Part shown: positions 8,074 through 55,968 of the stretch, piece by piece | Position numbering within the stretch: the stretch's first letter is position 1 | How the letters are laid out: each line of letters opens with the position of its first letter | Position numbers and translations under genes: made by a program | NCBI GenBank assembly: GCA_034336665.1 | Contig: JAPFBE010000036.1 | Span: forward strand, 310,001-374,000 | Source: Luscinia megarhynchos | Taxonomy: Eukaryota; Chordata; Aves; Passeriformes; Turdidae | Reading direction: 5' to 3' | DNA length: 64,000 bases | The notes under the pieces: generated by a model | What the model was told of the DNA's origin: nothing | The model's input: only the letters and a program-made list of their open reading frames with translations | The model's database searches: none

Positions 8074-8757
8074 CTGATCAAGAGGGATCCTGCTGTAACA
8101 TCCACTAGCTCTTTCAGTACTCTGGGATTAATCCTATCTGGCCCCATGGATTTATGAACATTCAACTGATACAGCTGGTACCTTACATTTTCAGTGTGCA
8201 CAAATGGAAAGTCACTGTTCCTGCACTCGTGGTCCTCTGACTCAGGAAAGTGGGAAGCCCAAGGTTTATCAGTATTGTTAAAGACTGAAGTAAAAATAGC
8301 ATTGAAACATAGCATGATTTGGGTTGGAAGCGACCTTAAGGATCATCTTGTTTCAATGCCCCTGCTGTGGGCAGGGACACCTTTCACTTGACCAGGTTGC
8401 TTCAAGCCCTGTCCAACCTTGCCTTGAACACTTCCAGGGATGGGGCATCCACAGACCATTGTGTTCAGCAATAAAAGCTGAGAAGAGAAAGGAAGGTGGG
8501 GAAGCATTCGCTATTGAGATACTTGTCTTCAGAAGCAACTGCTACATATACTGAGGCTCTACTTTCCAGGATGTGGCTGGACATTGCCTGCTGGTGGGAA
8601 GTAGAGAATAAATCTTTTTGTTTGTTTTGCTTTGCTTGTACAGAAGGGAAGGGATACCGTCCAGAGGGACCTTAACAGGCGTGAGAGGTGGGTCTGTGCA
8701 AACCAGATGAAGTTTAACAAGGCCAAGTGAGAGGTCCTGCACAAGTACAGGCTGGGC
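8074..8757 (-). repeat. Inverted repeat arm (684 bp), CR1-containing; partner at 12604-13287
   Basis: The reverse complement of this segment reappears at 12604-13287 with identical length, and several translated stretches are identical. On the minus strand it holds a CR1 ORF2 fragment (8074-8315, containing NVHKSMGPDRINPRVLKEL) and, at 8305-8470, a CR1 3-prime-end sequence. The outermost part (about 8680-8757) is also CR1-derived. The two arms are separated by 3846 bp. Confidence 0.85.
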
Positions 8758-9319
8758 GTGGAATGTGTCAAGACTAGCTGTTGTAATGCTGGACCAAGTT
8801 TAGGCCATGGTGGACATGTCTGTACAAATCTGGGCCTTTTGTGTGCACCAGCCAAAAACTATATTTAGTTGCTATGTTTTGCTGTCTAGTTATTTCTGCA
8901 TATTTTGCTGTGCATTCAAACGCTTCTTTCACACCCTAGCTGTTTTTGTGTATTTCTTAGTTTAGACCAGTGTTTACAACAGGTGCACAGCATGAGAACA
9001 TTTCGGGAGTTTTTCTATAACTTGTTGAAACCCCCCCAAGGCTGCTGGAACATAAAATATGCTAAATCGGGAGAGAAGAAGTTGAAAACACAGAATACCA
9101 AAATTAGAAGATTCAAGATAACAGGAGGTGTCGAAGATCCTGGACACCACCAATTACAGATTTTGAAGGGTTTGAATGGGTGGATCAATATCCTAAAATT
9201 AGCTATTGTAGAGTGTGTCCTCACGTGGGTCATGGTTCTAGAAATGTATAATTAGGGCAAATTATAAACAATAAATCGGCTTCTGAAACGTCATATTGAT
9301 CTGCTGTCCAGAAGTCCAT
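8758..9319. other. Spacer inside the inverted repeat, unassigned
   Basis: No coding signal is convincing. An AATAAA at about 9270 and the following sequence could be the end of an LTR beginning near 8775, but there is no supporting second copy or duplication. Confidence 0.25.
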
Positions 9320-12330: not shown

Positions 12331-12720
12331 CCCAGCCCCCTTAGTGGCCTACTCTGGCCTCGTTCCAAGAGGTTCCCATCTTTCCTGTGTTGGAGACCCC
12401 AGAGCTGGACACAAGATTCCAGGTGGAGTCTCACAAAGGCAGAGAAGGAGAATCACCTCCCTCGACCTGCTGGTATCTTTTGATGCAGCCCATGATGCAG
12501 TTGGCTTTCTGGGCTGCCAGTGAACTTTGCAGAGTCATGCTGAGCTTTTTCTCTACAAACAACCCAAGTCTTTCTCCCCAGGGCTGGTCTTGATACATTC
12601 TGCGCCCAGCCTGTACTTGTGCAGGACCTCGCACTTGGCCTTGTTAAACTTCATCTGGTTTGCATAGACCCACCTCTCACGCCTGTTAAGGTCCCTCTGG
12701 ACGGTATCCCTTCCCTTCTG
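12330..12720 (-). repeat. CR1 LINE fragment (minus)
   Basis: The plus strand carries the reverse complement of the CR1 3-prime untranslated region (blocks like GAGACCCCAGAGCTGGACACAAG and AGGTGGAGTCTCACAAAGGCAGA). The same region is represented at 32140-32280. The inverted-repeat arm begins inside it at 12604. Confidence 0.65.
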
Positions 12721-13287
12721 TACAAGCAAAGCAAAACAAACAAAAAGATTTATTCTCTACTTCCCACCAGCAGGCAATGTCCAGCCACATCCTGGAAAGT
12801 AGAGCCTCAGTATATGTAGCAGTTGCTTCTGAAGACAAGTATCTCAATAGCGAATGCTTCCCCACCTTCCTTTCTCTTCTCAGCTTTTATTGCTGAACAC
12901 AATGGTCTGTGGATGCCCCATCCCTGGAAGTGTTCAAGGCAAGGTTGGACAGGGCTTGAAGCAACCTGGTCAAGTGAAAGGTGTCCCTGCCCACAGCAGG
13001 GGCATTGAAACAAGATGATCCTTAAGGTCGCTTCCAACCCAAATCATGCTATGTTTCAATGCTATTTTTACTTCAGTCTTTAACAATACTGATAAACCTT
13101 GGGCTTCCCACTTTCCTGAGTCAGAGGACCACGAGTGCAGGAACAGTGACTTTCCATTTGTGCACACTGAAAATGTAAGGTACCAGCTGTATCAGTTGAA
13201 TGTTCATAAATCCATGGGGCCAGATAGGATTAATCCCAGAGTACTGAAAGAGCTAGTGGATGTTACAGCAGGATCCCTCTTGATCAG
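12604..13287 (+). repeat. Inverted repeat arm (684 bp); partner at 8074-8757
   Basis: Reverse complement of 8074-8757 with equal length and near-identical sequence. It includes part of the minus-oriented CR1 piece (12604-12720), a CR1 3-prime end (about 12895-13040, plus) and the start of a CR1 ORF2 fragment (13046-13287). Confidence 0.85.
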
Positions 13288-15546: not shown

Positions 15547-16091
15547 TGTGATAGATAAGGAACCTTTTGTTCGCCTGACAGACCTTGAAAAGATATCGCC
15601 TGGGCCTGTGGAGCCAAGATGTCTAAATTGTTTTATTGCTTTGATTGCCAAGATGGTGTCAATTGTTTTGCTTTGCTAGCCTTACAGACCTTGAGAGTAA
15701 GGCCAGGATGTTGTTAATCATTCTGTGCTGCATGCATAAATCACATATCGCTTTTAAGTGCCAGTAAGTCTCCAAGGAACCGCCGGATCACTGTATAAGG
15801 AGAAGGGGTCAGCAGGACAAGGCTGAGGAAGACTCTCACCTTCATCCCTCGACCACCAGAAGGCAGAAGAAGACCCCCTAGCAACTGGAGGAGCATGCTA
15901 AAATTACTAGAGAAAGAACACGTAATCCGGAGACCTAACAACTTAAAAGGGGCTTAACTAAGAGGGGTGGGCGCGACAGTTGGTGGAGCGGTGACTCCCC
16001 TGCCGCCCAGCTGCAACTTTGCTTTCTTTCTACAATAATAAATTGATTATTTTAATTGGAATGAGATGGCCCATTGTGCTCATTTATAACA
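15547..16091 (+). repeat. 5-prime LTR of provirus gamma-1
   Basis: A 545-bp LTR running TGTGATAGATAAGG to CATTTATAACA. It has a TATA-like TGTATAAGGAG near 15793 and AATAAA near 16036, and is followed by a primer binding site. The 3-prime LTR starts at 24198 and the sister provirus LTR is at 52826-53377. Over the 235 bp comparable with the 3-prime LTR I count about three substitutions plus several one-base indels, so insertion was recent or the copies were homogenised. Confidence 0.9.
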
Positions 16092-16094
16092 ACT

Positions 16095-16112
16095 TGGTGC
16101 CGCGGACTGGAT
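16095..16112 (+). promoter_or_regulatory. Primer binding site of gamma-1
   Basis: Starts TGGTGCCGCGGACTGGAT three bases after the LTR. The first eight bases fit the 3-prime end of tRNA-His (also Phe), the rest is imperfect, so the primer tRNA is uncertain. A leader of about 400 bp follows up to the apparent gag start. Confidence 0.65.
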
Positions 16113-19766: not shown

Positions 19767-21467
19767 TTGGAGGAAGAGGAGCTGGATGGGGGAGAGAAAC
19801 TGTTTGTAGATGGATCCTCCAGGGTGATTGAGGGAAAAAGGAAATCTGGATATGCCATCATAGGGGGAACTGACTTACAAGTAGTAGAATCAGGGGCTTT
19901 GGATAAGTCATGGTCAGCACAAGCGTGTGAGTTGTATGCTATACTCCGAGCTCTAACACTCTTAAAGGGGAAAGAGGGAACAATATATACTGATTCTAAA
20001 TATGGGTTTGGGGTGGTCCACACTTTTGGAAAATTATGGGAAGAAAGGGGACTGATTAACTCACAGGGAAATGATTTAGTACATCAGAAATTGATAGTTG
20101 AAGTATTGCGAGCTTTAAGGGGGCCCAAAAGGGTGGCAGTGGTTCATTTGAAGGGACACCAACGGGGGTTAGATTTCAGAAGCAGAGGAAATAATGCGGC
20201 TGATCAAGAAGCGAAACAAGCTGCCATGAAGGAAATGGTTTTGAGAGAGAAACAGGGAAATAATGAAGTACCTGAGCAGGAGGAAAATAATCCTGTTTTT
20301 ACAGATGGGGAAAAGGAAAAACTACGGAGGATGGGGGTAAAAGAGGAAATGGGCAAATGGGTGTTAGAAGATGGAAGAGAGATATTGCCAAAAGCAGTAG
20401 CTCAGCGAATGTTATATAAATTACATCAAAAGACACATTGGGGGGCCCAGGGGTTGGTTGACCACTTTGCTACTAAATTCATGAGTATTGGGCTCCATGA
20501 TATGGCTAAACATATCACTAAAAGCTGTCCCACCTGTCTGCGGGTAAACCGCAGTAATCTGAGGAGATTACCCCAAGGGGGAAGGCCTTTGGCAAAAAGG
20601 CCTTTTGCAAATTTGCAAATAGACCTCACTGAGTTACCAAAGGTTGGAAGGGTCAAATACCTCTTAGTCATAGTAGACCACCTCACCCATTATGTGGAAG
20701 CCTTCCCAACTGCAAGAGAAACAGCCCGGACAGTGGTAAAAACTTTGTTAGAAGAAATAGTGCCCAGGTACGGAGTGCCTGAGACCATAGACTCTGACAA
20801 AGGGCCACAATTCACATCGAAAATAACACAGGAACTGGCGGAAGCACTGGGAATTAGATGGGAGAAACATACCCCTTGGCATCCTCAAAGTTCAGGAAGG
20901 GTAGAAAGGATGAATGGAGAAATAAAGAAACAACTCACTAAATTGGTACTAGAAACTAGGCTGTCATGGACAAAATGCATTCCCTTAGCCTTGCTAAATA
21001 TTCGAACACAACCACGAGCAGATGTAGGATTGTCTCCATTTGAAATGTTATATGGAATGCCCCATAATTTGGAAAAGGTTCAATCCAATCCTAACATTAG
21101 TGAACAATATATCAATAAGTATTTGGCCACCCTAATGAAATTTAGAAAACAACTGTGGGAAAAAGGGATGTGGGCTCAGAGACCACCTTTAGATCTTGTG
21201 TTACATCAGGTACAACCTGGAGATTGGGTCCTGGTTCGAAGTTGGAAAGAAAACCCAATAACCCCAAAGTGGGAAGGACCGTATTTGGTACTACTCACCA
21301 CAGACACGGCCATCCGAACAGCAGAAAAAGGGTGGACTCATGCCAGCCGAATAAAGGGACCAGTGGATCCATCAAGATTCACGAAGGACACTAAAAGCCC
21401 TGAATGGGAAGTACAAGGGACGGCAGGTAACCTAAAGTTAACCTTGAGGAGAAAAACATCGTCATAA
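19767..21467 (+). CDS. pol: pol of gamma-1: RNase H and integrase (566-codon open frame)
   Basis: RNase H begins near residue 12 with FVDGSS and includes EL and TDS motifs. The integrase zinc-binding HHCC module lies near residues 215-260. The catalytic core has Asp286 (QIDLTELP), Asp344 (SDKGPQF) and Glu380 (GRVERMNGE), giving the D,D-35-E spacing. The C-terminal domain contains WEGPYLVLLTT. Length and motifs are gammaretrovirus-like and the integrase looks complete. The start is arbitrary: the frame is an intact remainder of pol downstream of the frameshifted RT. It ends in TAA directly against the next ORF. Confidence 0.85.
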   Translation: MEEEELDGGEKLFVDGSSRVIEGKRKSGYAIIGGTDLQVVESGALDKSWSAQACELYAILRALTLLKGKEGTIYTDSKYGFGVVHTFGKLWEERGLINSQGNDLVHQKLIVEVLRALRGPKRVAVVHLKGHQRGLDFRSRGNNAADQEAKQAAMKEMVLREKQGNNEVPEQEENNPVFTDGEKEKLRRMGVKEEMGKWVLEDGREILPKAVAQRMLYKLHQKTHWGAQGLVDHFATKFMSIGLHDMAKHITKSCPTCLRVNRSNLRRLPQGGRPLAKRPFANLQIDLTELPKVGRVKYLLVIVDHLTHYVEAFPTARETARTVVKTLLEEIVPRYGVPETIDSDKGPQFTSKITQELAEALGIRWEKHTPWHPQSSGRVERMNGEIKKQLTKLVLETRLSWTKCIPLALLNIRTQPRADVGLSPFEMLYGMPHNLEKVQSNPNISEQYINKYLATLMKFRKQLWEKGMWAQRPPLDLVLHQVQPGDWVLVRSWKENPITPKWEGPYLVLLTTDTAIRTAEKGWTHASRIKGPVDPSRFTKDTKSPEWEVQGTAGNLKLTLRRKTSS

Positions 21468-22115
21468 ATGGACTCAGAGGACATCTGGGTGGGGGATAAT
21501 TGGATATTACAGAAAGAATTAATTGGAACTTCAGAGTCACCTGGATATTGCGGATATTTAGAGAAGCTTGCGCAACAACCTTATTATCGAGAGATCAGGT
21601 TGACGAATAAAGGAAAACTGTATAATGGGGAGGGTAATGTAAATCATAATGATATAAGGGTGGCATGTAGTTGGTTAGATTGTCGTTGCTATCCATTTGT
21701 ATGCTTTTGCTGTAAAATTTGCAAAGAGCTGTGGTGGGTCCACTGCCAGAAGGGGAGGGCTCCTAGGAGTGTGTGTCAGCCTTGTTGGGAGGAACAGCGC
21801 AAGCTGACTACTTTGATTCTAAGCCAAAAAGTAGCAGCTCGAGAGCTAAAAGTGGGATCCCCGTCCTGGTGGCAGATATTCTCCAAAGGCATTAACCCTG
21901 AGCTTTATTGCTACCACTCCAACGAGCCTTCGGGTCCATTTAATACGGATATTGTAGAGGTAAAGTGCCGAAAACAGGAAAAAAAGCTCAGGTGTGATAC
22001 CCCACCGTTGAAAGAAAGGAGTTGGCACTCCAAGAAGAGAAAGTGGAAAAGAGGAGTGAATCCCACCCCTGAAGAATATCCTTGCTGCCGTGAAGATGGG
22101 TTACCCCGCAACTAG
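21468..22115 (+). CDS. Cysteine-rich accessory ORF between pol and env of gamma-1
   Basis: A 215-codon ORF whose ATG follows the pol stop immediately and which overlaps the env frame by 26 bp. It has a central cysteine cluster, residues 74-106, with spacing C-x4-C-x2-C-x2-C-x7-C-x9-C-x2-C and a conserved KE-WW-HC core. It also has an aromatic WW-IFSKG patch (134-141), a YCYHSNEP patch (147-154), a basic cluster KKRKWKR (189-195) and an acidic/cysteine tail EEYPCCREDG (202-211). There is no signal peptide or membrane segment. gamma-2 carries a homolog at 55383-55968 with the same seven cysteine spacings. The cluster suggests zinc binding and the basic stretch a nuclear or nucleic-acid-binding role, by analogy with small regulators encoded between pol and env in complex retroviruses. 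Function is unknown and not recognised from any named family. Confidence 0.7.
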   Translation: MDSEDIWVGDNWILQKELIGTSESPGYCGYLEKLAQQPYYREIRLTNKGKLYNGEGNVNHNDIRVACSWLDCRCYPFVCFCCKICKELWWVHCQKGRAPRSVCQPCWEEQRKLTTLILSQKVAARELKVGSPSWWQIFSKGINPELYCYHSNEPSGPFNTDIVEVKCRKQEKKLRCDTPPLKERSWHSKKRKWKRGVNPTPEEYPCCREDGLPRN

Positions 22116-24177
22116 TAGCAACCTGGTTGGCGGGCGAGGCAGAAGGGTAAGTGGTGGGGAAAGGGGACCTCCACCAAGTATAAACACCGATATGGCACTT
22201 AAACTCTTGGAAACCCAAGGCCGGAGGGGAGACAGCATGGGAAATAGAACAGAGAAAATTGTTAAAACGCAAATTAATTCTGGCAGTGAGCATCCCCTAG
22301 CTCTAAAATTGTGTATAATAGGAGGACTGGTGGGGCTTGTTATTGGGTCGGCGGAGGCCAGTCACGAACCCTTTAGATGGTCACTGATAAGGTGGGAAGA
22401 TCAGACAACTATTCAAACAGTAGTAACTTCAGGAAGCCCCTCATTTCGAGTATACCTGACCCAGCTGACCTTGATATGGGGCGGAATAGATCAGCCTTCG
22501 GAACCCCGAAATGCTGGAAGGAGATATTCAGCCTTTTATATGTGCCCGGCCTCCAACCCGGGAAAGGGGTTTTGTAACTATCCAGGATACAACTACTGTG
22601 CATATTGGGGCTGTGAAACCATTGCTTCAGGATTTCCCCCAGGAGGAGGGCCTGATCGGTTTTTGAAAGTTAATAGAGGACCCCCAGGATGTATATCCCC
22701 CCAATATGCCTATGATGGAACTGTAAAGGGTGGACACCGCGGCTGGTGTCAGTATGTATACTTAAACATAAGCCAACCAGAAGATCCAGGGTGGTTGGTA
22801 GGAAAGACATGGGGGTTTCAATTTTGGGAACCGGGAAGAGATAGGGGAGGAATGATATTAATAAGGAAAGAATCAGTCCCACATGACCCGGTACCCGTGG
22901 GACCCAACCCAGCTATCAATGCTGAGAAAGAATGGAACAATACGAAATCCTCAGGCAACAAAACTTTAGAGGCGAATGGGACTAGGGAAGGAAATGAATC
23001 TGTTAGTTGGCCAAATGAGCCCCAGTCCACTCAAGAATATAATGCACTGTGGAAAGTAATGCAGGCCACATTTAGGGTTCTAAATAACACCTACCCTAAC
23101 TTAACAGAAGGGTGCTGGTTATGTTACATGATAAAGCCACCTTTTTATGAAGCCCTAGGGTCCTCTGCGAAATTGAGACGAGTTAACGGAACAAATCCGA
23201 GAGAGTGCCTTTGGAAAAAAGGGAAGGAAAATACCCCTGGGTTATCAATAGCCCAGGTAAAAGGCAAAGGGAGATGTGTGGGAAACATACCCATAGAAAA
23301 AGACCATCTTTGCCAAGTAAAAATGTCCATCTCAGACTCGAGAAAACCAGCCCAATGGCTCCTTCCCGCAGCTAATACAAAATGGATTTGCAACAGCCTA
23401 GGGGTTACCCCATGCCTGGCAATTGGTAATTTTAATGAAACATCAGAATACTGCATACAAGTTTTAATTATTCCTCGAATATCATATCATCCGAAGGACT
23501 ATGTATATGAACATCAAATTACCCCGGAGCATCACATAATGAAAAGAGAACCATTTACGGCACTCACAGTGGCAGTATTGCTTAGCATTGGGGGAGCGGG
23601 ATTAGGAACCGGAGTGGCGTCTTTAGTGAACCAACAACAGGGAATAAGAGATTTAAGAATCTCGGTGGATGAGGACCTAAGCAGAATTGAAAAGGCAATA
23701 GATGGGTTGGTAAAGTCAGTAAGATCCTTATCAGAGGTAGTGTTACAGAACCGTAGAGGATTAGATCTTTTGTTTCTACAACAAGGGGGGCTCTGTGTGG
23801 CTCTGAGGGAAGAATGTTGTACTTACGCAGACCATACAGGAATTGTGATCGACACCATGGCAGAGTTACGGAAACAACTAGAGCAAAGGAAAAGGGAACG
23901 AGAAGCACAACAAAGTTGGTATGAATCCTGGTTTACCCGCTCCCCTTGGCTAACAACCCTCTTATCCACCATAGCAGGACCATTAGTATTGTTCATTTTG
24001 ACACTAACATTCGGGCCATGCATTTTCAACAAACTTATTAACATAGTGAAAGGAAGGCTTGAAGCTGCCCACTTGATGCTTATAAGAGCAAAATATGAAA
24101 CTTTAAAGGGGGAAGAAACAGAAGACTATTTAGAATTAAGCAGAATAGAATTACAAAGATTTAGCGAACAAAAGTAA
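22090..24177 (+). CDS. env: env of gamma-1, open over 695 codons
   Basis: Surface and transmembrane glycoprotein precursor. A long Arg/Gly-rich leader precedes the hydrophobic signal segment (about residues 76-95). SU contains cysteine-rich receptor-binding-type sequence, several N-glycosylation sites and a CWLC motif at 342-345. A basic cleavage site ends at Arg486, followed by a fusion-peptide-like segment rich in Ala/Gly/Leu. TM shows the immunosuppressive-type segment (552-568) and C-x6-C-C (569-577), then a membrane anchor near 620-645 and a short tail. This is the gamma-type env architecture. The frame is complete with no stop, unlike gag and RT. The true start may be an internal ATG. 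Confidence 0.85.
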   Translation: MKMGYPATSSNLVGGRGRRVSGGERGPPPSINTDMALKLLETQGRRGDSMGNRTEKIVKTQINSGSEHPLALKLCIIGGLVGLVIGSAEASHEPFRWSLIRWEDQTTIQTVVTSGSPSFRVYLTQLTLIWGGIDQPSEPRNAGRRYSAFYMCPASNPGKGFCNYPGYNYCAYWGCETIASGFPPGGGPDRFLKVNRGPPGCISPQYAYDGTVKGGHRGWCQYVYLNISQPEDPGWLVGKTWGFQFWEPGRDRGGMILIRKESVPHDPVPVGPNPAINAEKEWNNTKSSGNKTLEANGTREGNESVSWPNEPQSTQEYNALWKVMQATFRVLNNTYPNLTEGCWLCYMIKPPFYEALGSSAKLRRVNGTNPRECLWKKGKENTPGLSIAQVKGKGRCVGNIPIEKDHLCQVKMSISDSRKPAQWLLPAANTKWICNSLGVTPCLAIGNFNETSEYCIQVLIIPRISYHPKDYVYEHQITPEHHIMKREPFTALTVAVLLSIGGAGLGTGVASLVNQQQGIRDLRISVDEDLSRIEKAIDGLVKSVRSLSEVVLQNRRGLDLLFLQQGGLCVALREECCTYADHTGIVIDTMAELRKQLEQRKREREAQQSWYESWFTRSPWLTTLLSTIAGPLVLFILTLTFGPCIFNKLINIVKGRLEAAHLMLIRAKYETLKGEETEDYLELSRIELQRFSEQK

Positions 24178-24197: not shown

Positions 24198-24432
24198 TGT
24201 GATAGATAAGGAACCTTTGTTCAGCCTGGACAGACCTTGAAAAGATATCGCCTGGGCCTGTGGAGCCAAGATGTCTAAATTGTTTTATTGCTTTGATTGC
24301 CAAGATGGTGTTAATTGTTTTGTTTTGCTAGCCTTACAGACCTTGGAGAGTAAGGCCAGGATGTTGTTAATCATTCTATGCTGCATGCATAAATCACATA
24401 TCGCTTTAAGTGCCAGTAAGTCTCCAAGGAAC
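24198..24432 (+). repeat. 3-prime LTR of gamma-1, cut by assembly gap
   Basis: The first 235 bp match the 5-prime LTR at 15547. The rest, including the target-site duplication, lies in the gap. Confidence 0.9.
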
Positions 24433-24532
24433 NNNNNNNNNNNNNNNNNNNNNNNNNNNNNNNNNNNNNNNNNNNNNNNNNNNNNNNNNNNNNNNNNNNN
24501 NNNNNNNNNNNNNNNNNNNNNNNNNNNNNNNN
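24433..24532. other. Assembly gap (100 N)
   Basis: Exactly 100 N. It separates the truncated gamma-1 LTR from the start of a large inverted-repeat arm only 26 bp further on. Confidence 1.
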
Positions 24533-24607
24533 TATAGGGAGGAAAAGATTGTTGCATTAAAGCTCAATTGGAGTTGAAGCCGGCCAGTACATTCTGTGGT
24601 GGATAAC

Positions 24608-25016
24608 TGTCCTGAGTTTGGCTGGGATAGAGTTAATTTCCTTCTCAGTAGCTGGTACAGTGCTATGTTTTGGATTCAGCATGAGAATAATGCTGATAAC
24701 ACACTAATGTTTTAGTTGTTGTTGAGCGAGTGTTTACCCTAAGTCAAGAGCCTTTCATTGTCTCATGCTTTGCCAGGGAGGAGCTGCACAAGAGGCTGAG
24801 AGGGAGCATGGCCAGGACAGCTGTTCTGAACTGGCCAAAGGGATATTCCATACTACAGAACATCACGTTCAGTATATAAACTGAGGGCAGTTGTCTGGAA
24901 GCCACTGATTGTTGCTCAAAGATGGGCTGGGCATCTGTCAATGGGTGATGAGCATTTGTATTGTGCATCAGTTCTTTGCCTTGGGTTTTATTCCTCTCTT
25001 TTTTCATTACAATATT

Positions 25017-25053
<37 letters not shown>

Positions 25054-25112
25054 GTAATTTTATTTTGCTTCCAATTATTAAAGTGGTCTTATCTCAGCCC
25101 ACAAGGTTTACA
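24608..25112 (+). repeat. ERVL-type LTR (plus) nested in arm L
   Basis: It starts TGTCCTGAGTTTGGCTGGG, has TATATAAACTG near 24874 and an ATTAAAGTGGTCTTATCTCAGCCCAC region near 25076-25100, the layout of a widespread bird ERVL LTR. The right end is approximate. An (ATA)n repeat at 25012-25053 lies before the poly(A) region. Confidence 0.6.
25012..25053. repeat. (ATA)n microsatellite, mirrored at 45799-45840
   Basis: About 14 trinucleotide units within the ERVL-type LTR. Both arms carry it at similar length. Confidence 0.9.
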
Positions 25113-25189
25113 GCAGTGGATGCCTTACCTATCGGTAACATTGTTCTGGACTGAGGACACTAAGTTAATTCAACCTAGAGGAGAATAAG

Positions 25190-25470
25190 GGGTGATCTCA
25201 TTGATGTCAACGACTTCCTCATGAGGAGGAGAGAGAGAGGTGCTGATCTTTCTTGTCTGGTGACAGGACAGGAGGGAATGCTTAAAGCTGCAGCAGGGGA
25301 AGTTCAGACTGGATATTAGGAAAAAGTTCTTCACTGAGAGAATGGTCAAGCACTGGAACAAGCTCCTCAGGGGAAGTCATCATGACTCCAAGCCTCATAA
25401 AAGTCAAGAAGTGTTTGGACAATGTTCATAGATATATGGTTAAACTTTCAGATCACCCTCTGTGGAGTCA
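25190..25470 (+). repeat. CR1-like fragment in arm L
   Basis: Blocks such as GGTGATCTCATTGATGTC, GACTGGATATTAGGAAAAAG and GGTCAAGCACTGGAACAAG resemble the CR1 3-prime untranslated region. It is diverged and lacks the terminal octamer repeats. Confidence 0.45.
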
Positions 25471-25479
25471 GGAGTTAAA

Positions 25480-26666
25480 CTCTGTACTGGTTAGCAGAAG
25501 AACAATAATAGCGTGCCGAGTGCAAATCTTACACTGCAATAGCACCCACGCATGATGCCAACCTCTAGATGCACCCAAAAACTGCAGGGAAACTTCCCAC
25601 AAATACAAGCTATTCCATTCACCTCTTCTTGACTTCCTAAATTCTCTACAGCCTGGTGCTCCCAATCCAAAAGCCACCAGTTTTCCAACTTTTACTCTTC
25701 TCTGCTAAACTGGTCCTATCCTTTGTCTAGTCCCAAAAAACGTCCACCTCTCAGCTCCCAAAAAAATAATCCTCTTTTTTTCTACCTTTTTCACTAACTT
25801 CACACTCAGTGTGCTGCACTTCTAACTTTTGACACAAGATGGCCGTGTTGCCTCAAAAGCACAGCAGCTCCAAAACACAACTCTAAGTCACTTCCCACTC
25901 TAACTAGCATCACAGCCTTATTATTCCCGCGGGAAATACTTACAAACACACTATGCTAAAGCACTCAACCTCTAAATTTCAAATTCGACAAGCAAAAACC
26001 TGATCAGCAGACGCTGTCCCTATCGTGTCTCAGAGTCCAGACCTTTTTAACATGAACACCGAGTGTTACAGTAGACACAGTCTCCCGTAACCCAAAGTAC
26101 ACACGCACCACAGTCACAGCGGGAGGGGGGCTTTTTTCACAACCGCTCTCACAGTCAGGACACATTCACAACAGCATAATAATCATAGACAAAGGTTTGC
26201 CCTTAAAACTGCTAGCCCCAAATTGCAAAGCAAACTGAGTCGTTTACGGCATAATCAATCGGCCAAAATCCCCCTCTGCCAGCAACCAAAGCCCGAGACC
26301 CACCCCTCCCTCCCCGCCCAGGCACAACAGCTCCACAGCTGTCTCTGCCGGCAACCAAATACAATTAACAGCTTGCGAACACACTATATAAGCACAAGCT
26401 GTGTGTGACGCGTCTCCTCCCACAGCTTAACAATGGCCTTTCCTGACCACGCGTACGCCTTACAGGTCACTTTTGAAAACTGTTTCAGTTTTTAAACATA
26501 CTGTTTTGTCCGGAGTTTTTAGTAGTCAGGAGTCATTGTCTGCTGCCGAATGAACAGTCGGAACAGCGGAGCCCTCCTCTTCCAGGAATATTCGAGCTCC
26601 CAAGGGGTCCACCACACAAGCCAGTCTCACAGCCGAAAGAACCTTGTCCTGCCGCGGTCGCCAAAT
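25480..26666 (-). other. Leader and gag start of class III-like ERV, arm L copy
   Basis: On the minus strand the primer site (TGGCGACCGCGGCAGGA, near 26646-26662) is followed by about 1 kb of leader and then a short gag-like frame (25688-25491). The first codon of that frame is TTG rather than ATG in both arms, so the loss predates the duplication. The frame is longer here than in arm R, where a small deletion shifts it. Confidence 0.6.
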
Positions 26667-27290
26667 TGGATCATTAAAACCAATATGTTCACGGACAAAG
26701 ACTCTCTAACTAGTTAAAGTTAGAAAATGGTATGTTTATTAAGATGTCGGAGGGCTGCACGGGGGTAGTCCTCTACAGACATGGCAGCCCTGTATAAGGT
26801 TCCTTGCCCTCTATTTATTTCCCAAAGTCTTACATTCCATACATATGCATAACCCCAGTACCTCTTATCCCCGCTCTGTATTAAAATGAGGCTAATAGTC
26901 CATCACGCGTGAGCATTTCTTCTCTTGAATTGCGTCAGTGGTCTTGAATTGGGCGAGTGGTCTTGAAAGATGAAGGAAAGTCTTCATCAGGTCTCCGTGA
27001 CCCTCTGGCACAATCCCAGGTCCCCTGCTTCGTGATTGATTGATATAAAGTCCAGGTGTCAGCCATTGTTCTACTGGTTTCAATCTGTTCTTATAATGGT
27101 TCACTTATTCCACCATTTCTATAAACAAAACTGAAACAACCTCATAGTGGCAAGTAATACCTCTATTATCTCTAGCTTAAGCATCCAATAATCATTAACC
27201 TATCGTTTGTTTTATCTAACTTGCATCCTGATCAATATGAATTTCTTCTAACCCTTACCTAAAATCTAAACTCTTTAAAATCATGATTCA
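26667..27290 (-). repeat. LTR of class III-like ERV, arm L copy
   Basis: 624 bp, the same length as the arm R copy at 43562-44185. On the minus strand it starts TGAATCATGATTTTAAAG after a purine-rich GAGAGAGGATGGAAG tract and ends AATGATCCA before the primer site. It is preceded by 3-prime untranslated sequence and followed by leader, so it serves as both the 3-prime LTR of one unit and the 5-prime LTR of the next. Confidence 0.85.
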
Positions 27291-27630
27291 CTTCCATCCT
27301 CTCTCATGTAAAAGAAAAAGACAGAGTGGAGACACACACACAAAAAAAAACCAGCATAAAAACTTCAAAGTCAGACCAAAAAAGAGTTAAGTCCCAAATA
27401 GGAGGGGATGAGGAGATGCCTAAAGTAAAATTCTCTTGTAAGTGATAGTGATAGACTATAATAAAACACTAATCTTAGAAAAATTAGGATTCTAGTTGAA
27501 AGTTAGAAGAAACTGTGTTTGAAAAAGTTATCTGTAACTTAAATAATTAATTGCCTGTCATTTTATGTTTGCTCAGCTGTGCCTGCAATGGGAAAAGATG
27601 AAACTAGTAAGTAGTCCAAAGAAACATGAA

Positions 27631-28530
27631 CTGAGGAAGTGTGTAAGTCTACAGCTTTGTATTTCCACACTTTTCCTTCTCTCTTGGCTGAGGCATCAGT
27701 AAACCAGGCATTTTCTGTCTGCTCGGGCGAGAAGGGAGGGGCTACCTTAATCACTGAAGCCGGTTTTTCCTGACTGCTGTTCAAGTTCTCTGTTTCTTGT
27801 ATTGACAAATTTTTAACAGCACCTTCAGTGATGGAGAAAATGTGACAGTAGTGTTCTATTTGAGCATAACATTTTCTCACAGAGGCCCGTTGGGCAACCC
27901 CTTCTGGAGGAGGGGTTCCAGAGGTAACTGTTTTAATTACTTTAAAAGGACCTCTCAATACAATTGGCTGTTGTCTCGTGATTTTTTTCTACTTCAATCA
28001 AAGCCAAACTAACAACAAACAGCCCTTTTTCCAAGTTGTGTATCTTTTTTCAGCATCCTTAAAACTACGGGAGTAGAAACTGACAGGCCTGGTAGGCCCC
28101 TCTGGACCTCTCTGCCATATGTGTACAGATAACCCTGAAGAAGCAAAACCCCATTCTACTGGAAAGGATCTGTTGGGTGAATAGGACCTAGGGCCTGATG
28201 GGCTGTTGCTTCAAAAATCAGTAATTGTAATGCTTCCTCCTGAGCTGGGCTCCAATCCCATTTTACCCCTTTTCATAACAGATTATAAAGGGGCCTGGCA
28301 ATTATTGAAAATTTGGGAATGTGTTTTCTCCAAAATACTAATAACCCTAAAGCTTGTTGAAGTTCCTTTTTGGATTCAGGCATTTTAATCTGATCTAGTG
28401 AGGTTAGTGTGTCTGGTGGAATGCATGTCATTCCGCCCTTCCAGAAAATCCCTAAAAATTTGACTTCCTGTGAGGGTTTCTGTATTTTCTCTGGAGGGAT
28501 CTGCAAGCCAAGGTTTTCTAGGTGTGAGAT
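27631..28530 (-). pseudogene. pol: pol fragment (RT C-terminus to RNase H) of class III-like ERV
   Basis: About 900 bp matching 48031-48931 of the nearly open pol in reverse complement with few residue changes. It starts just after the RT YIDD position and ends just after the RNase H WFTDAS motif. There it is fused to 3-prime untranslated sequence that in arm R begins at 43226. The integrase and env are deleted. The other end joins a 16-bp sequence that also occurs at 46323-46338. Confidence 0.8.
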
Positions 28531-42784: not shown

Positions 42785-43225
42785 TGATTTATCAAAATAT
42801 GAGTATTGGTCTACTATCGATACTCAACTGTAACAGACAAAAGACTCTCTAACAATTTAAATTTACAAAGTGTATGTTTATTCAGCACTGGGCAGCAGCG
42901 TGAAGTAATCCTCTAATATGCACTGCACAATTACGGGTGATCATAGAGTCTATTGACAAGAGTTTCAAACAAATGCATACTCATAATAACAGAACCTCCC
43001 ATCCCCGCTTCCAATGGTAATTAGCTTGAATAGCTATTAAGCATGCGTGATTGACTTCTTAAATTAAGTCTGGGGTCGGTTTCGTGGGGAGGGGTCTTAA
43101 AAGGAGGAAGTAAGGCGAGTCTTCCTCACCCTAAACTCTCGACCTTTTCTATCAATGACAATACAAATGGCTTCTGAGGATAGTCCAATTTGTTTTGAAG
43201 AATAAGTTTCTGGTTGCATTGTCCA
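42785..43225 (-). repeat. 5-prime LTR of the gammaretrovirus-like-pol ERV
   Basis: On the minus strand it runs TGGACAATGCAACC to TGATAAATCA. It has GAATAAACATACACTTTG and GTTAGAGAGTCTTTTGTC, clearly related to the R/U5 of the 624-bp LTRs at 43562 and 26667. It abuts the inverted-repeat arm R. The U3 is shorter and different. Confidence 0.7.
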
Positions 43226-43561
43226 TGTTTCTTTGGACTACTTACTAGTTTCATCTTTTCCCATTGCAAGCACAGCTGAGCAAACATAAAATGACAGGCA
43301 ATTAATTATTTAAGTTACAGATAACTATTTCAAACACAGTTTCTTCTAACTTTCAACTAGAATCCTAATTTTTCTAAGATTAGTGTTTTATTATAGTCTA
43401 TCACTATCACTTACAAGAGAATTTTACTTTAGGCATCTCCTCATCCCCTCCTATTTGGGACTTAACTCTTTTTTGGTCTGACTTTGAAGTTTTTATGCTG
43501 GTTTTTTTTTGTGTGTGTGTCTCCACTCTGTCTTTTTCTTTTACATGAGAGAGGATGGAAG
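43226..43561 (+). other. 3-prime untranslated region and polypurine tract preceding the LTR
   Basis: Non-coding sequence ending in GAGAGAGGATGGAAG directly before the LTR. Finding it upstream of what acts as a 5-prime LTR means another unit once lay to the left (tandem or recombined provirus). In arm L the same sequence is fused to a pol fragment. Confidence 0.6.
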
Positions 43562-44185
43562 TGAATCATGATTTTAAAGAGTTTAGATTTTAGGTAAGGG
43601 TTAGAAGAAATTCATATTGATCAGGATGCAAGTTAGATAAAACAAACGATAGGTTAATGATTATTGGATGCTTAAGCTAGAGATAATAGAGGTATTACTT
43701 GCCACTATGAGGTTGTTTCAGTTTTGTTTATAGAAATGGTGGAATAAGTGAACCATTATAAGAACAGATTGAAACCAGTAGAACAATGGCTGACACCTGG
43801 ACTTTATATCAATCAATCACGAAGCAGGGGACCTGGGATTGTGCCAGAGGGTCACGGAGACCTGATGAAGACTTTCCTTCATCTTTCAAGACCACTCGCC
43901 CAATTCAAGACCACTGACGCAATTCAAGAGAAGAAATGCTCACGCGTGATGGACTATTAGCCTCATTTTAATACAGAGCGGGGATAAGAGGTACTGGGGT
44001 TATGCATATGTATGGAATGTAAGACTTTGGGAAATAAATAGAGGGCAAGGAACCTTATACAGGGCTGCCATGTCTGTAGAGGACTACCCCCGTGCAGCCC
44101 TCCGACATCTTAATAAACATACCATTTTCTAACTTTAACTAGTTAGAGAGTCTTTGTCCGTGAACATATTGGTTTTAATGATCCA
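43562..44185 (+). repeat. LTR of class III-like, env-bearing ERV (arm R copy)
   Basis: 624 bp, TGAATCATGATTTT to TTTTAATGATCCA, with TTAATAAACATACC near 44110 as poly(A) region. It is followed by the primer site. Identical in length to the arm L copy. The copy at 1906-2561 is more diverged. Confidence 0.88.
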
Positions 44186-44188
44186 ATT

Positions 44189-44206
44189 TGGCGACCGCGG
44201 CAGGAC
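44189..44206 (+). promoter_or_regulatory. Primer binding site
   Basis: TGGCGACCGCGGCAGGAC three bases after the LTR. The tRNA could not be named with certainty. Confidence 0.65.
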
Positions 44207-45182
44207 AAGGTTCTTTTCGGCTGTGAGACTGGCTTGTGTGGTGGACCCCCTTGGGGCGCCCCCGGAATATTCCTGGAAGAGGAGGGCTCCGCTGTTCCGA
44301 CTGTTCATTCGGCAGCAGACAATGACTCCTGACTACTAAAACTCCGGACAAAACAGTATGTTTAAAAACTGAAACAGTTTTCAAAAGTGACCTGTAAGGC
44401 GTACGCGTGGTCAGGAAAGGCCATTGTTAAGCTGTGGGAGGAGACGCGTCACACACAGCTTGTGCTTATATAGTGTGTTCGCAAGCTGTTAATTGTATTT
44501 GGTTGCCGGCAGAGACAGCTGTGGAGCTGTTGTGCCTGGGCGGGGGAGGGGAGGGGGGTGGGTCTCGGGCTTTGGTTGCTGGCAGAGGGGGATTTGGCCG
44601 ATTGATTATGCCGTAAACGACTCAGTTTGCTTGCAATTTGGGGCTAGCAGTTTTAAGGGCAAACCTTTGTCTATGATTATTATGCTGTTGTGAATGTGTC
44701 CTGACTGTGAGAGCGGTTGTGAAAAAAAAGCCCCCTCCCCGCTGTGACTGTGGTGCGTGTGTACTTTGGTTACGGGAGACTGTGTCTACTGTAACACTCG
44801 GTGTTCATGTTAAAAAGGTCTGGACTCTGAGACACGATAGGGACAGCGTCTGCTGATCAGGTTTTTGCTTGTCGAATTTGAAATTTAGAGGTTGAGTGCT
44901 TTAGCATAGTGTGTTTGTAAGTATTTCCCGCGGGAATAATAAGGCTGTGATGCTAGTTAGAGTGGAAGTGACTTAGAGTTGTGTTTTGGAGCTGTTGTGT
45001 ATTTTTGAGGCAACACGGCCATCTTGTGTCAAAAGTTAGAAGTGCAGCACACTGAGTGTGAAGTTAGTGAAAAAGGTAGAAAAAGAGGATTATTTTTTTG
45101 GGAGCTGAGAGGTGGACGTTTTTTTGGGACTAGACAAAGGATAGGACCAGTTTAGCAGAGAAGAGTAAAAGTTGGAAAACTG
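44207..45182 (+). other. Long leader with G-quadruplex motif
   Basis: About 1 kb between primer site and gag. It contains a TATATAG near 44466 and a strong G4 pattern (GGGGGAGGGGAGGGGGGTGGG at 44542-44562, plus strand); the complementary C-rich copy lies at about 26301-26322. No ORF is convincing. Confidence 0.5.
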
Positions 45183-45380
45183 GTGGCTTTGGATTGGGAG
45201 CACCAGGCTGTAGAGAATTTAGGAAGTCAAGAAGAGGTGAATGGAATAGCTTGTATTTGTGGGAAGTTTCCTGCAGTTTTTGGTGCATCTAGAGGTTGGC
45301 ATCATGCGTGGGTGCTATTGCAGTGTAAGATTTGCACGGCACGCTATTATTGTTCTTCTGCTAACCAGTACAGAGTTTAA
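45183..45380 (+). pseudogene. gag: gag start fragment of class III-like ERV
   Basis: A short frame (DWEHQAVENLGSQEEVNG) with Trp/Cys-containing sequence just after the leader. It lacks an ATG and is shifted relative to arm L, then is interrupted by the CR1-like and ERVL-type insertions at 45385-46244. Confidence 0.45.
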
Positions 45381-45384
45381 CTCC

Positions 45385-45665
45385 TGACTCCACAGAGGGT
45401 GATCTGAAAGTTTAACCATATATCTATGAACATTGTCCAAACACTTCTTGACTTTTATGAGGCTTGGAGTCATGATGACTTCCCTGAGGAGCTTGTTCCA
45501 GTGCTTGACCATTCTCTCAGTGAAGAACTTTTTCCTAATATCCAGTCTGAACTTCCCCTGCTGCAGCTTTAAGCATTCCCTCCTGTCCTGTCACCAGACA
45601 AGAAAGATCAGCACCTCTCTCCTCTCCTCCTCATGAGGAAGTCGTTGACATCAATGAGATCACCC
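45385..45665 (-). repeat. CR1-like fragment in arm R
   Basis: Reverse-complement twin of 25190-25470. Confidence 0.45.
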
Positions 45666-45739
45666 CTTATTCTCCTCTAGGTTGAATTAACTTAGTGTCC
45701 TCAGTCCAGAACAATGTTACCGATAGGTAAGGCATCCAC

Positions 45740-45800
45740 TGCTGTAAACCTTGTGGGCTGAGATAAGACCACTTTAATAATTGAAGCAAAATAAAATTAC

Positions 45801-45837
<37 letters not shown>

Positions 45838-46244
45838 AATATTGTAATGAAAAAGAGAGGAATAAAACCCAAGGCAAAGAACTGATGCACAATACAAATG
45901 CTCATCACCCATTGACAGATGCCCAGCCCATCTTTGAGCAACAATCAGTGGCTTCCAGACAACTGCCCTCAGTTTATATACTGAACGTGATGTTCTGTAG
46001 TATGGAATATCCCTTTGGCCAGTTCAGAACAGCTGTCCTGGCCATGCTCCCTCTCAGCCTCTTGTGCAGCTCCTCCCTGGCAAAGCATGAGACAATGAAA
46101 GGCTCTTGACTTAGGGTAAACACTGCTCAACAACAACTAAAACATTAGTGTGTTATCAGCATTATTCTCATGCTGAATCCAAAACATAGCACTGTACCAG
46201 CTACTGAGAAGGAAATTAACTCTATCCCAGCCAAACTCAGGACA
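45740..46244 (-). repeat. ERVL-type LTR (minus) nested in arm R
   Basis: Reverse-complement twin of 24608-25112, including the (TAT)n at 45799-45840. It splits the gag region of the class III-like ERV. Confidence 0.6.
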
Positions 46245-46322
46245 GTTATCCACCACAGAATGTACTGGCCGGCTTCAACTCCAATTGAGCTTTGGCTGTA
46301 CAATTTTTCTCCCTATAATGGT

Positions 46323-47032
46323 GTGTAAGAGTCCGTCTATAGCCTGTAAAACCAGAAATTATGACACCGCTAATTAGAGGTCTGCCTGAATCACTAAAAC
46401 CAACAGCAATAGTTCTTCAAAAAACTATAGCCTCCATTTCTCCAATAGATCGGCTTGACAGATTTTTAGGCCAGCGATGCCCAAGCAGTCAAACCGATTC
46501 TGATGATACCTCTGGCTTTTCGCCTAACACCCCCGAACAATGTTCAAACAACAAAGTCTGGACATGGGGAGAAGTCGCAGAGGAATTGATAAATTATAAG
46601 AGAAAATACAGGCTGATAAAACCTTTAGAAGATAAGCCCGAAAAACCTAGAGGGGTCAGACATATTGCCTCCCCTAATGAAAATCCAGAAAGAGTTAAAC
46701 CACTACACAATACTCATACAAACCGACAAGCACTCTGGCAATTGGGAATTAAAAAAGGAGTGCCACGAGAATTAATGGATGGCTTGTCACAAGAAAAATT
46801 GGCTCAGCTAGTTTCAAACTGGCACTCTCCCAAAGCTCTAATACAAAAAACACCTAAGTTACCTAGTGCACCCTTGATGCAAGCTCCATGCAGGAAGCCA
46901 AAACTCTTCTTTCCACGAGCACCAAGCACTGAAACATTGCACAAACAAGCAGTTTCTGTACAATCACATGAAACACAGACACCCCTATCTCAAAAACAGG
47001 AAAATAAACCAAACCAACAAGCTTTAAACTAA
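46323..47032 (+). CDS. gag: gag C-terminal part of class III-like ERV
   Basis: The open frame 46361-47032 (223 codons) contains a charged central part and a helix-rich segment (ALWQLGIKKGVPRELMDG) that could be the end of capsid, then a Pro/Gln/Lys-rich tail. There is no CCHC knuckle. It ends in TAA at 47030, 4 bp before a hairpin and 41 bp before the pol ATG, which is in another frame. Position and composition are the evidence. No domain is recognised with certainty. Confidence 0.55.
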
Positions 47033-47035
47033 AAG

Positions 47036-47068
47036 CTCCGTCCCTAAGTAGTGGGCGCAGGGACGGAG
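47036..47068 (+). promoter_or_regulatory. Perfect 9-bp hairpin at the gag-pol junction
   Basis: CTCCGTCCC (47036-47044) and GGGACGGAG (47060-47068) form a GC-rich stem with a 15-nt loop, starting three bases after the gag stop and ending five bases before the first pol ATG. The placement suggests a role in recoding, reinitiation or RNA processing. Confidence 0.6.
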
Positions 47069-47073
47069 ATTAC

Positions 47074-50000: not shown

Positions 50001-50154
50001 TTACCCTGGACAACCTGTTTTAGTAGACCTCCCTATGGTGGGAAATGTACCACTTGTGCTAAAAACTCCTTTGAATAAATTTGCATGGGTAGCACCTGAT
50101 GCTGTGGGAAAACAACATCGGATAAATACCCGTTGGATTATACCATCATTTTAA
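47074..50154 (+). pseudogene. pol: pol of class III-like ERV, open except one TGA
   Basis: Protease with DTG at residues 33-35. RT with YIDD at 298-301. RNase H starting near WFTDAS (Asp598). Integrase zinc module near 770-800 and core Asp817 (QIDYIGP), Asp875 (SDNGSHF) and Glu911 (GIVERTNG), 35 residues apart. The RNase H and integrase sequence style is that of ERVL/spuma-related class III elements, not of the gammaretrovirus-like pols elsewhere in the window. One nonsense codon (TGA at 49864-49866) splits an otherwise continuous frame of about 1026 codons. The RT has LPQEYQHSP where LPQG-NSP is usual. Confidence 0.85.
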
Positions 50155-50245
50155 CACCTTTGCCACTAGATGGCTGATTTTCCTGTGCTTATAATTGCAG
50201 GTGAACTCCGAGGGTCACTTCAAGTGACATGAAAGCCAGACAACC

Positions 50246-53397: not shown

Positions 53398-54498
53398 CTA
53401 CTTTTGTTCGCTATATCTTTGTAATTCTTTTTTACTTAATTCTAAATAGTTTTCTGTTTCTTCTCCATTCAAGGCTTCATATTTTGCTCGTATTAACATG
53501 AGGTGAGCTGCTTCTAACCTACTCTTTACTATGCTAATGATTTTGTTAAAGATGCAAGGGCCAAAGGTGAGTCCTAAAATTAGCAAGATCAATGGTCCTG
53601 CTATGGTAGATAACAAAGTTGTTAACCAGGGAGAATAGTTAAACCAAGATTCATACCAACTTTGTCGGGCTTCTCTATCCTTTTTACATTGCTCCAGTTG
53701 TTTTCGGAGCTCAGCCATGGTGTCAATTGCTATCCCAGTGTGGTCCGCATAGGTGCAACATTCTTCCTGTAAAGCTACACACAATCCCCCTTGCTGTAAA
53801 AATAACAGGTCTAATCCCCGCCTATTCTGTAATACAATTTCTGAAAGAGATCTTACTGATTTTACAAGACCGTCTATTGCTTCTTCTATTCTACTTAGGT
53901 CTTCATCCACTGAGACTCTAAGATTTTTAAATTCTTGCTGTTGGTTTACTAAAGAAGCTACTCCTGTTCCTACTCCAGCACCTCCTAATGTTAATAATAC
54001 AGCAACTGTAAGGGCTGTAAACAGTTCCCGTTTTACCAGGTGGTGTCCTGGAGTGGTTTGATGTTTATACACATAGTCTTTTGGGTGGTATACGATTCGG
54101 GGAACTATCATGACCTGAATGCAGTATTCGGATGTTTCATTGAAATTAGGTATTGATATACACGGGGTTACCCCTAATGTGTTACAGACCCACTTGGTGT
54201 TTGCAGCAGGGATTAACCATTGGGCAGGTTTGCGGGAGTCGGTTACAGCCATTTTTACCCTGCAGAGGTGGTCCTTATCTCGAGGTATGTTGCCTATACA
54301 TCTCCCCTTCCCATTTACCTGCGCCATCGATACCCCTGGGGTGCTTTCTTTTCCCCTTTTCCAAAGGCACAAGGAGGGATTGGTCCCATTTATTCTTTTA
54401 GATTTTGCTACAGAACCTAAGGCCTCATAAAAGGGTGGATTAATACTGTAACATAACCAGCACTCTTTAGTCAAATTGGGGTATGTACTATTTAACAC
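53398..54498 (-). CDS. env: env of gamma-2: SU C-terminus and complete TM
   Basis: A 366-codon open frame with CWLC near residues 17-20, basic cleavage residues before a fusion-like segment near 155, an immunosuppressive-type segment with C-x6-C-C near 220-245, an anchor near 288-312 and a tail. It is the counterpart of gamma-1 residues from about 330 on. The N-terminal half lies in another frame upstream, separated by a stop at 54536 and a frameshift. Confidence 0.85.
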   Translation of the reverse strand: MLNSTYPNLTKECWLCYSINPPFYEALGSVAKSKRINGTNPSLCLWKRGKESTPGVSMAQVNGKGRCIGNIPRDKDHLCRVKMAVTDSRKPAQWLIPAANTKWVCNTLGVTPCISIPNFNETSEYCIQVMIVPRIVYHPKDYVYKHQTTPGHHLVKRELFTALTVAVLLTLGGAGVGTGVASLVNQQQEFKNLRVSVDEDLSRIEEAIDGLVKSVRSLSEIVLQNRRGLDLLFLQQGGLCVALQEECCTYADHTGIAIDTMAELRKQLEQCKKDREARQSWYESWFNYSPWLTTLLSTIAGPLILLILGLTFGPCIFNKIISIVKSRLEAAHLMLIRAKYEALNGEETENYLELSKKELQRYSEQK

Positions 54499-54535: not shown

Positions 54536-55462
54536 TTACTGGGGTTGTGTCACGGCTGTTGTCTTTATTAGCTGTGATTCATTTTTGGTCTCTGTAAAAC
54601 TTTCTTGGCTTATGTTGTCTAAGTTACTCTGATCCGTTATTGTGGCTTTTGAGTCTGTCATTATAGGATTTGGTCCAACAGGCTGAGGATCGTGGGGTAT
54701 AATTTCCTTCTTTATAACAATATGTCCTCCTCGGTCCTTTTCGGGTTCCCATATTCTAACTCCCCAGAATTTTCCTACTACCCATCCCGCGTCTTGGGGT
54801 TGCGTGACATTAAGATAGACCCATTTACAAGTACCGATATAAGTTACCACCCCTGATGGATCTGTCCAGGGTTTTTTACATCCATGTGGACCTCTTTCAA
54901 CTCTTAAGTACTTATCTTGGATTTGGACCGACCATCCTAGGGAAATTGTTTCACAGCCCCAATATCCACAGTAAAATTCTCCGGGGTAGTTACAGTATGA
55001 CCTCCCTGGGTTAGATGCTGGACACATGTAGAATACACTATAGGGGCTAGAACCTGTCCTGTCAAGTAGATCATCTAGAGTTATGTTAAAGCTAGGACTT
55101 CCCGAAGTAGTTTGTGTTTGAATTTCTCTCTGACCTTCCCATTTTATAAGTGACCATTTAAACGGTTCGTGGCTTGCATGTACTCCTTTTAGGGACATCA
55201 AACAAATTATTCCTAACCGGAGGTAGTAGCTTCCCCAATGCCCGCAACTTGTCTGCCAGTGGTGATTACTATCCCATTGTTTCTGTAACCTGTCCTCCCA
55301 TCGCCTTTGGGTCTCCACCTTTAGTCTCCTCTGTGCCCGTGGGCGACCCACTCCACAAACATTTTCTCCTCTGCCTCGCCCATCAACTCGGTTGCAGCGA
55401 GCTATGGGGAGTTCCATCTTCTCGGCAGCAAGAGTACTCTTCAGGAGGGGTGTTTGCCCCAT
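54536..55462 (-). pseudogene. env: env of gamma-2: leader and SU N-terminal half
   Basis: A 308-codon frame. The long Arg-rich leader (about residues 20-70) precedes the hydrophobic signal segment near 80-95. SU has the same YCGYWGCETIS-type cysteine motif as gamma-1. The frame ends in TAA at 54536, just where SU should continue into 54498. It overlaps the accessory ORF by 80 bp. Confidence 0.8.
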
Positions 55463-55968
55463 GCTTTTTGATGCGTTTAATATACCTGCTCCACTTGCGG
55501 GCTTTAATTAGAGGAGTATAGCAACTGAGTTCGGGTACCCACCGCCTACACAGGGCAGCTACAATTTTGGCTACAAATGGGGTAGGTTCATTAGAGTGGT
55601 AGCAGTAAAATTGAGGGTTCACCCCCCTTTGAAAAAATCTCCCACCACTTTTTAGATCCCACTGAAAGCCCTCCCACAGCCACTACGGTGGCTAGGACCT
55701 GAGAAGTGAGCCTCCTTTGGCTCCAGTAACAATTGTGACACACCCCCCTAGGGATGTAACCGTTGCGGCAATGGGCCCACCACTCCTCCTTACAAACTAA
55801 ACAGACAAAGCATACAAATGGATTACAATTTCCCCAGCAGTTTTCAGCATTACATTTGAGTTTAACCTCTGCACTTAGTACACTTTCCCCACCTTCTAGT
55901 GGTACCCCTGTTTTTCTGTTTTCTATTGTGAAAGAAAAGTACTGTGGATCCCAAGGTTCAGCATCCAT
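55383..55968 (-). pseudogene. Cysteine-rich accessory ORF of gamma-2, one frameshift
   Basis: Homolog of 21468-22115. The first frame (55968-55591) holds the cluster at residues 48-80 with C-x4-C-x2-C-x2-C-x7-C-x9-C-x2-C and a KEEWWAHC core, then WWEIFSKG. A frameshift near 55600-55620 moves the remainder, with YCYHSNEP, a basic stretch (RKWSRYIKRIKK) and EEYSCCREDG, into 55622-55383. The N-terminus differs in sequence and length from gamma-1. Position between integrase and env is the same. Confidence 0.7.

Follow-up and report, generated by a model that had tools for sequence, protein, structure and literature searches.

A predicted Cys/His-rich accessory gene between pol and env of bird gamma-type proviruses

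We predict that gamma-type proviruses in the genome of Luscinia megarhynchos carry an additional gene between pol and env. The window (the whole stretch of DNA analysed, 64,000 nucleotides; assembly GCA_034336665.1, contig JAPFBE010000036.1, positions 310,001 to 374,000) contains two such proviruses. Absence of the open reading frame (ORF) from most related proviruses had been named as grounds for rejecting the gene, and within the window it is present in two of two gamma-type proviruses (Table 1). The ORF of provirus 1 is almost certainly a real accessory gene of its virus lineage. Our preferred explanation, to which we give a probability of just under one half, is that bird gamma-type viruses have an accessory gene that encodes a basic and probably zinc-stabilized protein, that is expressed from its own spliced mRNA, and that acts as a nuclear or RNA-binding regulator.

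Table 1. Features of the two gamma-type proviruses in the window.
Feature	Position	Strand	Remarks
5′ LTR, provirus 1	15547..16091	+	TG...CA ends
pol 3′ part, provirus 1	19767..21467	+	RNase H; integrase (C-terminal domain of MLV type); accessory ATG follows immediately after its stop
Candidate splice acceptor, first exon base, upstream of accessory ORF	21210	+	Homologous site in copy 2 at 56269
Accessory ORF, 215 aa, provirus 1	21468..22115	+	ATG start, intact; Cys/His core at residues 67-106, WW...P...CYHSNEP region, C-terminal CCREDG
env, gamma type (TLV_coat), provirus 1	22096..24177	+	ATG with counterpart in copy 2; long leader, then hydrophobic segment; 20 bp overlap with accessory ORF
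3′ LTR start, provirus 1	24198..24432	+	Cut by N gap 24433-24532; used for LTR comparison
env TM part, provirus 2	53398..54498	-	
env SU part, provirus 2	54536..55462	-	Overlaps C-terminal piece of accessory homologue
Accessory homologue, provirus 2, stretch with C-terminal piece in another frame	55395..55640	-	CYHSNEP...CCREDGTP
Accessory homologue, provirus 2, first piece, 125 aa	55591..55968	-	Between pol and env; frame broken downstream

The open reading frame and its proviruses

The pol gene of provirus 1 ends with a TAA at 21465-21467 and the accessory ORF begins at the next base, which bears out the original prediction of an intact 215-codon frame directly after the pol stop. The ORF is in the pol frame, with a single stop codon between the two. 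None of 4000 first-order Markov sequences with the composition of the provirus was open for 215 codons; the homologues described below are more decisive against a chance ORF than this simulation. The overlap with env had been given as 26 bp, which holds from the listed GTG start at 22090 but shrinks to 20 bp from the env ATG at 22096, the start that has a counterpart in copy 2 (ATG 55417).

The encoded protein has 16 cysteines in 215 amino acids and a pI of 8.8 (8.8-9.1 in the three family members for which it was computed). Its highest 19-residue hydropathy is only 1.03, so no membrane segment is indicated, in agreement with what had been proposed. The WW-HC core, the KKRKWKR stretch, and the CC-E-D tail (CCREDG) are all present in the window protein as described. 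The proposed spacing of seven cysteines is correct from C74 on, but the conserved set also takes in C67 and C72, and C81, although found in the protein, is not conserved.

Provirus 1 is broken as a whole element, since its gag and the 5′ part of its pol are in short frames only. The parts of its LTRs that were compared are 96.6% identical over 237 aligned columns. Its pol contains an MLVIN_C domain (Pfam PF18697, E 4.7e-11), and pol matches best to RNase H of the MLV type, followed by foamy virus integrase. The env gene matches TLV_coat (Pfam PF00429, E 5.2e-111) over profile positions 85-560 of 560 and encodes CVALREECC, a CX6CC motif; the nearest solved structures in PDB are MLV-related Env, HERV-S71 Env, and syncytins. 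Provirus 2 is on the minus strand at about 53-61 kb and is 75% identical to provirus 1 in nucleotide sequence over 4880 columns. A scan of its gag found a Gag_p30 domain (Pfam PF02093, E 2.6e-22). The proviruses are assigned to the gammaretrovirus-like group (class I) based on the MLV-type Gag p30, the MLV-type integrase C-terminus, and the gamma-type env.

Other features of the window were also found. A likely primer binding site at 16094-16111, two bases after the 5′ LTR of provirus 1, begins TTGGTGCC and resembles the tRNA-His type more than the tRNA-Pro type of MLV. The env leader of both proviruses (approximately 22096-22370 and 55170-55417) is long and arginine-rich and precedes a hydrophobic segment; it is reminiscent of those betaretroviral leaders that function as RNA regulators. 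A short stretch at 40288-40459 matches the pol region of each gamma-type provirus at 70-73% identity and is perhaps a fragment of a third relative. Another retrovirus-like element, at 46361-52784, has an intact 930 amino acid protease-RT-RNase H-integrase ORF and a downstream ORF of 458 amino acids without a Pfam match at E <= 0.01. Segments 24533-28530 and 43221-48931 are inverted and nearly identical (98.3% over 3.1 kb and 97.9% over 0.9 kb), which suggests a recent duplication or an assembly feature. There is also a 705-bp inverted repeat with 99.1% identity (8074-8778 and 12583-13287).

Relatives, conserved residues, and selection

Searches of 5.8 billion proteins, which reach only relatives of similar length with shared short exact words, gave 8, 28, and 28 matches at E cut-offs of 1e-3, 1, and 10, with 36 distinct proteins in all. 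Thirty are family members with 27-80% identity to the window protein (alignments A2 and A4), and 16 of these are at least 190 amino acids long. The other six, gene models from the barn swallow (P0008, P0009, P0026-P0029), have the C-terminal part only, joined mostly, as judged by eye, to other endogenous retrovirus (ERV) pieces. The only named hosts of the matches are Accipiter gentilis (P0022) and Hirundo rustica, both birds; the rest are from Logan or ENA assemblies. We assume that the gene lies between pol and env in the 30 relatives also. These homologues, together with the domains retained in pol and env, bear out the claim of a distinct gene that is conserved in many relatives.

The tree of the family is deep. 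It includes 27 rows, with four fragments (P0019, P0020, P0024, and P0025), the six swallow models, and copy 2 left out. The clade of the window protein (P0001-P0005) forms one starred group, and P0036 and P0037 are a distant starred pair. The remainder of the tree is weakly resolved, with 8 of 24 inner branches starred and 9 open.

Residue conservation was assessed in A2 (24 rows, built before P0030-P0037 were found) and A4 (23 rows). C67, C72, C74, C79, C82, C85, H92, C93, C103, and C106 are each kept in 22-24 of 23-24 A2 rows, and C148, H150, C167, C176, C206, and C207 in 15-20 of 18-21. The family thus has conserved Cys/His residues as candidate ligands of a putative zinc protein. In two divergent members, P0036 and P0037, C79 is replaced by His, a swap that would be expected of a zinc ligand, and the conservation pattern is consistent with zinc binding by the Cys/His core.

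The ends of the protein differ among members. The N-terminus is longer in the window's clade (IWVGDNW...). Outside this clade, an arginine-rich tail of up to 48 residues follows CCREDG and presumably overlaps the env leader in another frame. RRARQR or RRARQK occurs in 15 of the 17 A4 rows that continue past CCREDG outside the clade, and the other two have close variants (QRARQK in P0022 and RRQRQR in P0036). In the window's clade, the four rows that are complete at this end all terminate no more than 5 residues from CCREDG. They therefore lack the arginine-rich motif, which is not needed there. The overlapping env frame may be partly behind its conservation elsewhere.

The 125 amino acid piece of provirus 2 is 40% identical to the window protein, and it too shares the reading frame of the end of pol, with a single stop codon between. 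Both halves of the accessory gene are under purifying selection between the window copies, whereas a dN/dS near 1 across many copies had been set as evidence against the gene. The first piece (109 codons) has pN 0.395, pS 0.64, and a dN/dS of about 0.39 (Fisher p 0.0004), and the second piece (79 codons, the last of which overlap env) has pN 0.324 and pS 0.837 (Fisher p 9e-11); dN/dS-type ratios are rough here because synonymous sites are near saturation. For the first piece, the two other forward frames contain 9/6 and 10/8 stops and have pN about equal to pS; one reverse frame has a pN/pS ratio of 0.34, which we take as the mirror of third-position change. For scale, env SU has a pN of 0.37 between the same two proviruses, env TM has 0.114, and two pol pieces have 0.07-0.08. 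The accessory gene diverges about as fast as the surface part of env.

Searches of Pfam (the window protein and 18 members) and of PDB sequences found nothing above chance, and the protein matches no known family there. At E <= 1 the 18 members matched two chance-level Pfam families only. Pfam holds models of the Vif, Tat, Rev, Rex, and Tas families, and no profile of Vif, Tat, Rev, Rex, or foamy Tas matched the window protein or the 18 members at E <= 1. The best AlphaFold model of the window protein has a confident core (block means of 78-96 over residues 71-150), and so does that of P0010 (80-96 over residues 21-100); the five models per run disagree (mean pLDDT 70.2-57.9 for the window protein and 74.4-44.3 for P0010). 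Foldseek gave no match at E <= 0.001 in PDB for either model, nor in BFVD for the model of the window protein. The absent match is compatible both with a new fold and with a known one, such as that of Vif, Tat, Rev, Rex, or foamy Tas.

Predicted expression and function

Upstream of the accessory ORF, the highest-scoring acceptor-like site occupies homologous positions in the two copies, scoring 5.8 at 21210 and 7.8 at 56269 (both TTACATCAG/G). No acceptor-like site upstream of the ORF scores above shuffled sequence (best shuffled scores: median 5.4, 95% point 8.8), and pol coding constraint could be the cause of the kept site. Downstream of the candidate acceptor, at least two ATGs (21340 and 21404) precede the ORF. 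The start context is weak at the accessory ATG (T at -3) and strong at the env ATG. Five ATGs outside the accessory frame lie between the accessory ATG and the env ATG, so translation of env by leaky scanning from an accessory-first mRNA is unlikely, and we therefore infer that the two proteins are more plausibly made from spliced mRNAs of their own. All six swallow gene models, which are predictions, join upstream exons at one point just before EIVDC; this hints at an acceptor inside the accessory gene that would be able to serve env. A donor-like site at 22146 (AGG/GTAAGT, score 10.2) was also seen in the env leader of provirus 1, just past the accessory stop, and the matching place in copy 2 has no donor scoring at least 7.5.

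We propose that the gene was kept by selection while bird gamma-type viruses were replicating. The product would be a soluble basic protein of about 25 kDa in which the central cluster (the most conserved Cys and His residues, C67 to C106) probably binds zinc. This cluster would be followed by a second Cys/His-containing region and then by a basic tail, which in most members that reach the end has the arginine-rich motif, presumably coded over the env leader. Expression would most likely be from its own spliced mRNA. Its most likely role is to regulate viral expression as a small nuclear or RNA-binding protein, which may work like Tat, Rev, or Rex with no sign of kinship to them. We judge a regulator likeliest because of the basic tail, the arginine-rich motif, the Cys/His core, and the genomic position. 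Against this reading, Pfam, PDB, and Foldseek gave no sequence or fold match to a known RNA-binding regulator, and the pN is like that of env SU (0.395 vs 0.37), which a host-interacting antagonist fits equally well.

Such an antagonist is the main rival, and we consider it unlikely but well worth weighing. The protein would then be an accessory factor like Vif, Vpr, or Vpx, a zinc-stabilized adaptor for removing or blocking an antiviral factor of the bird. The location between pol and env is that of Vif, the conserved Cys/His cluster and tryptophan pairs would suit such an adaptor, the window copies diverge as fast as env SU, which is typical of proteins that face host factors, and the window's clade has no arginine-rich motif. 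However, the 18 members have no Pfam match at E <= 1 beyond the two chance-level families and there is no fold match (although a shared fold is compatible with the absent match), and the basic tail and arginine-rich motif of most members point to nucleic acid. A quite improbable alternative to splicing is readthrough or reinitiation at the pol stop, which would place Pol-accessory fusions in particles. In each of the two window proviruses the ORF shares the pol frame, with a single stop between and no further stop before the ATG; a shared frame has a chance of about 1 in 9 if the copies are independent, and is commoner than that because they have common ancestry. The stops are TAA and TGA, with no readthrough signal known to us at either, the distance from stop to ATG differs between the copies (0 vs 18 bases), and each copy has its own ATG.

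Capture from the host, followed by divergence beyond recognition, is also an improbable origin of the gene. Capture has a precedent between pol and env in the KIT-ligand of CrocERV29 (PMC4299795), but no host homologue was found among the 5.8 billion proteins (by searches that reach fairly close relatives only), in Pfam, or in PDB. The named matches are the six ERV-like swallow models and an uncharacterised protein of the goshawk, which falls among other family members in the tree. That the ORF is no gene at all, but a leftover of pol or env or a chance open frame, is barely credible, and the homologues contradict it. Its only support is the location in the pol frame; homology to displaced pol or env, which would have told against the original prediction, was not found, since pol keeps its MLV-type integrase C-terminal domain and env its long TLV_coat match, and the conserved homologues, the purifying selection, and the Markov simulation all oppose this reading.

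Comparison with known retroviruses

The lentiviral Vif, Tat, and Rev and the deltaretroviral Rex are small non-structural proteins coded at or near the pol-env junction with partial env overlap; Tat and Vif have a Cys/His cluster, and Tat, Rev, and Rex have an arginine-rich motif. The accessory gene shares the junction site, the cluster or motif, and the partial overlap. Unlike these, it is in a gamma-type provirus, encodes 215 amino acids with 16 cysteines, has no sequence, Pfam, or fold match to them, and in the window's clade has no arginine-rich motif. The betaretroviral Rem and Rec and the JSRV env leader regulator have an arginine-rich segment over or at the start of env, and the env of the window provirus also has a long leader. 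Rem and Rec are not known to have a Cys/His core, whereas the accessory protein has one and is encoded upstream of env by an ORF of its own in a different frame.

In Gag_p30, the MLV-type integrase C-terminus, and the gamma-type env, the proviruses are like gammaretroviruses (MLV, REV) and bird ERV1, from which they differ by one additional conserved gene. Apart from the deltaretroviruses, viruses with a gamma-type Env are regarded as simple, and our results suggest that part of this supposedly simple group is not so simple. The extra conserved gene besides gag, pro, pol, and env is a feature of complex retroviruses; the label 'complex gammaretrovirus' also requires proof of regulatory function and of multiple splicing.

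The nearest precedent that we found is the crocodilian CrocERV29, in which a captured host KIT-ligand ORF lies between pol and env and is under purifying selection (PMC4299795). Both are extra ORFs in the same place in archosaur ERVs under purifying selection. However, the CrocERV29 gene is a recognisable host cytokine, whereas here no host homologue was found and many relatives have the gene. We found no description of such a gene in the titles and abstract openings of the open-access literature, and it is apparently undescribed.

A broader picture, which we offer somewhat more tentatively than the explanation given above, is that a large and old radiation of bird gamma-type retroviruses has, between pol and env, a regulator family of its own that contains zinc, is arginine-rich, and is unrelated to known retroviral regulators. 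This would be an independent origin of complexity in a supposedly simple group, with an RNA-binding tail that in most members is overprinted on the env leader and that was lost or moved in one clade. If true, a conserved extra gene in a bird lineage would mean that retroviral complexity arose once more, and the gene would provide a new protein for testing RNA regulation or the defeat of bird antiviral factors. Being sufficiently compact and varied, the family lends itself to direct tests of single proteins (expression, metal, localisation, and partners).
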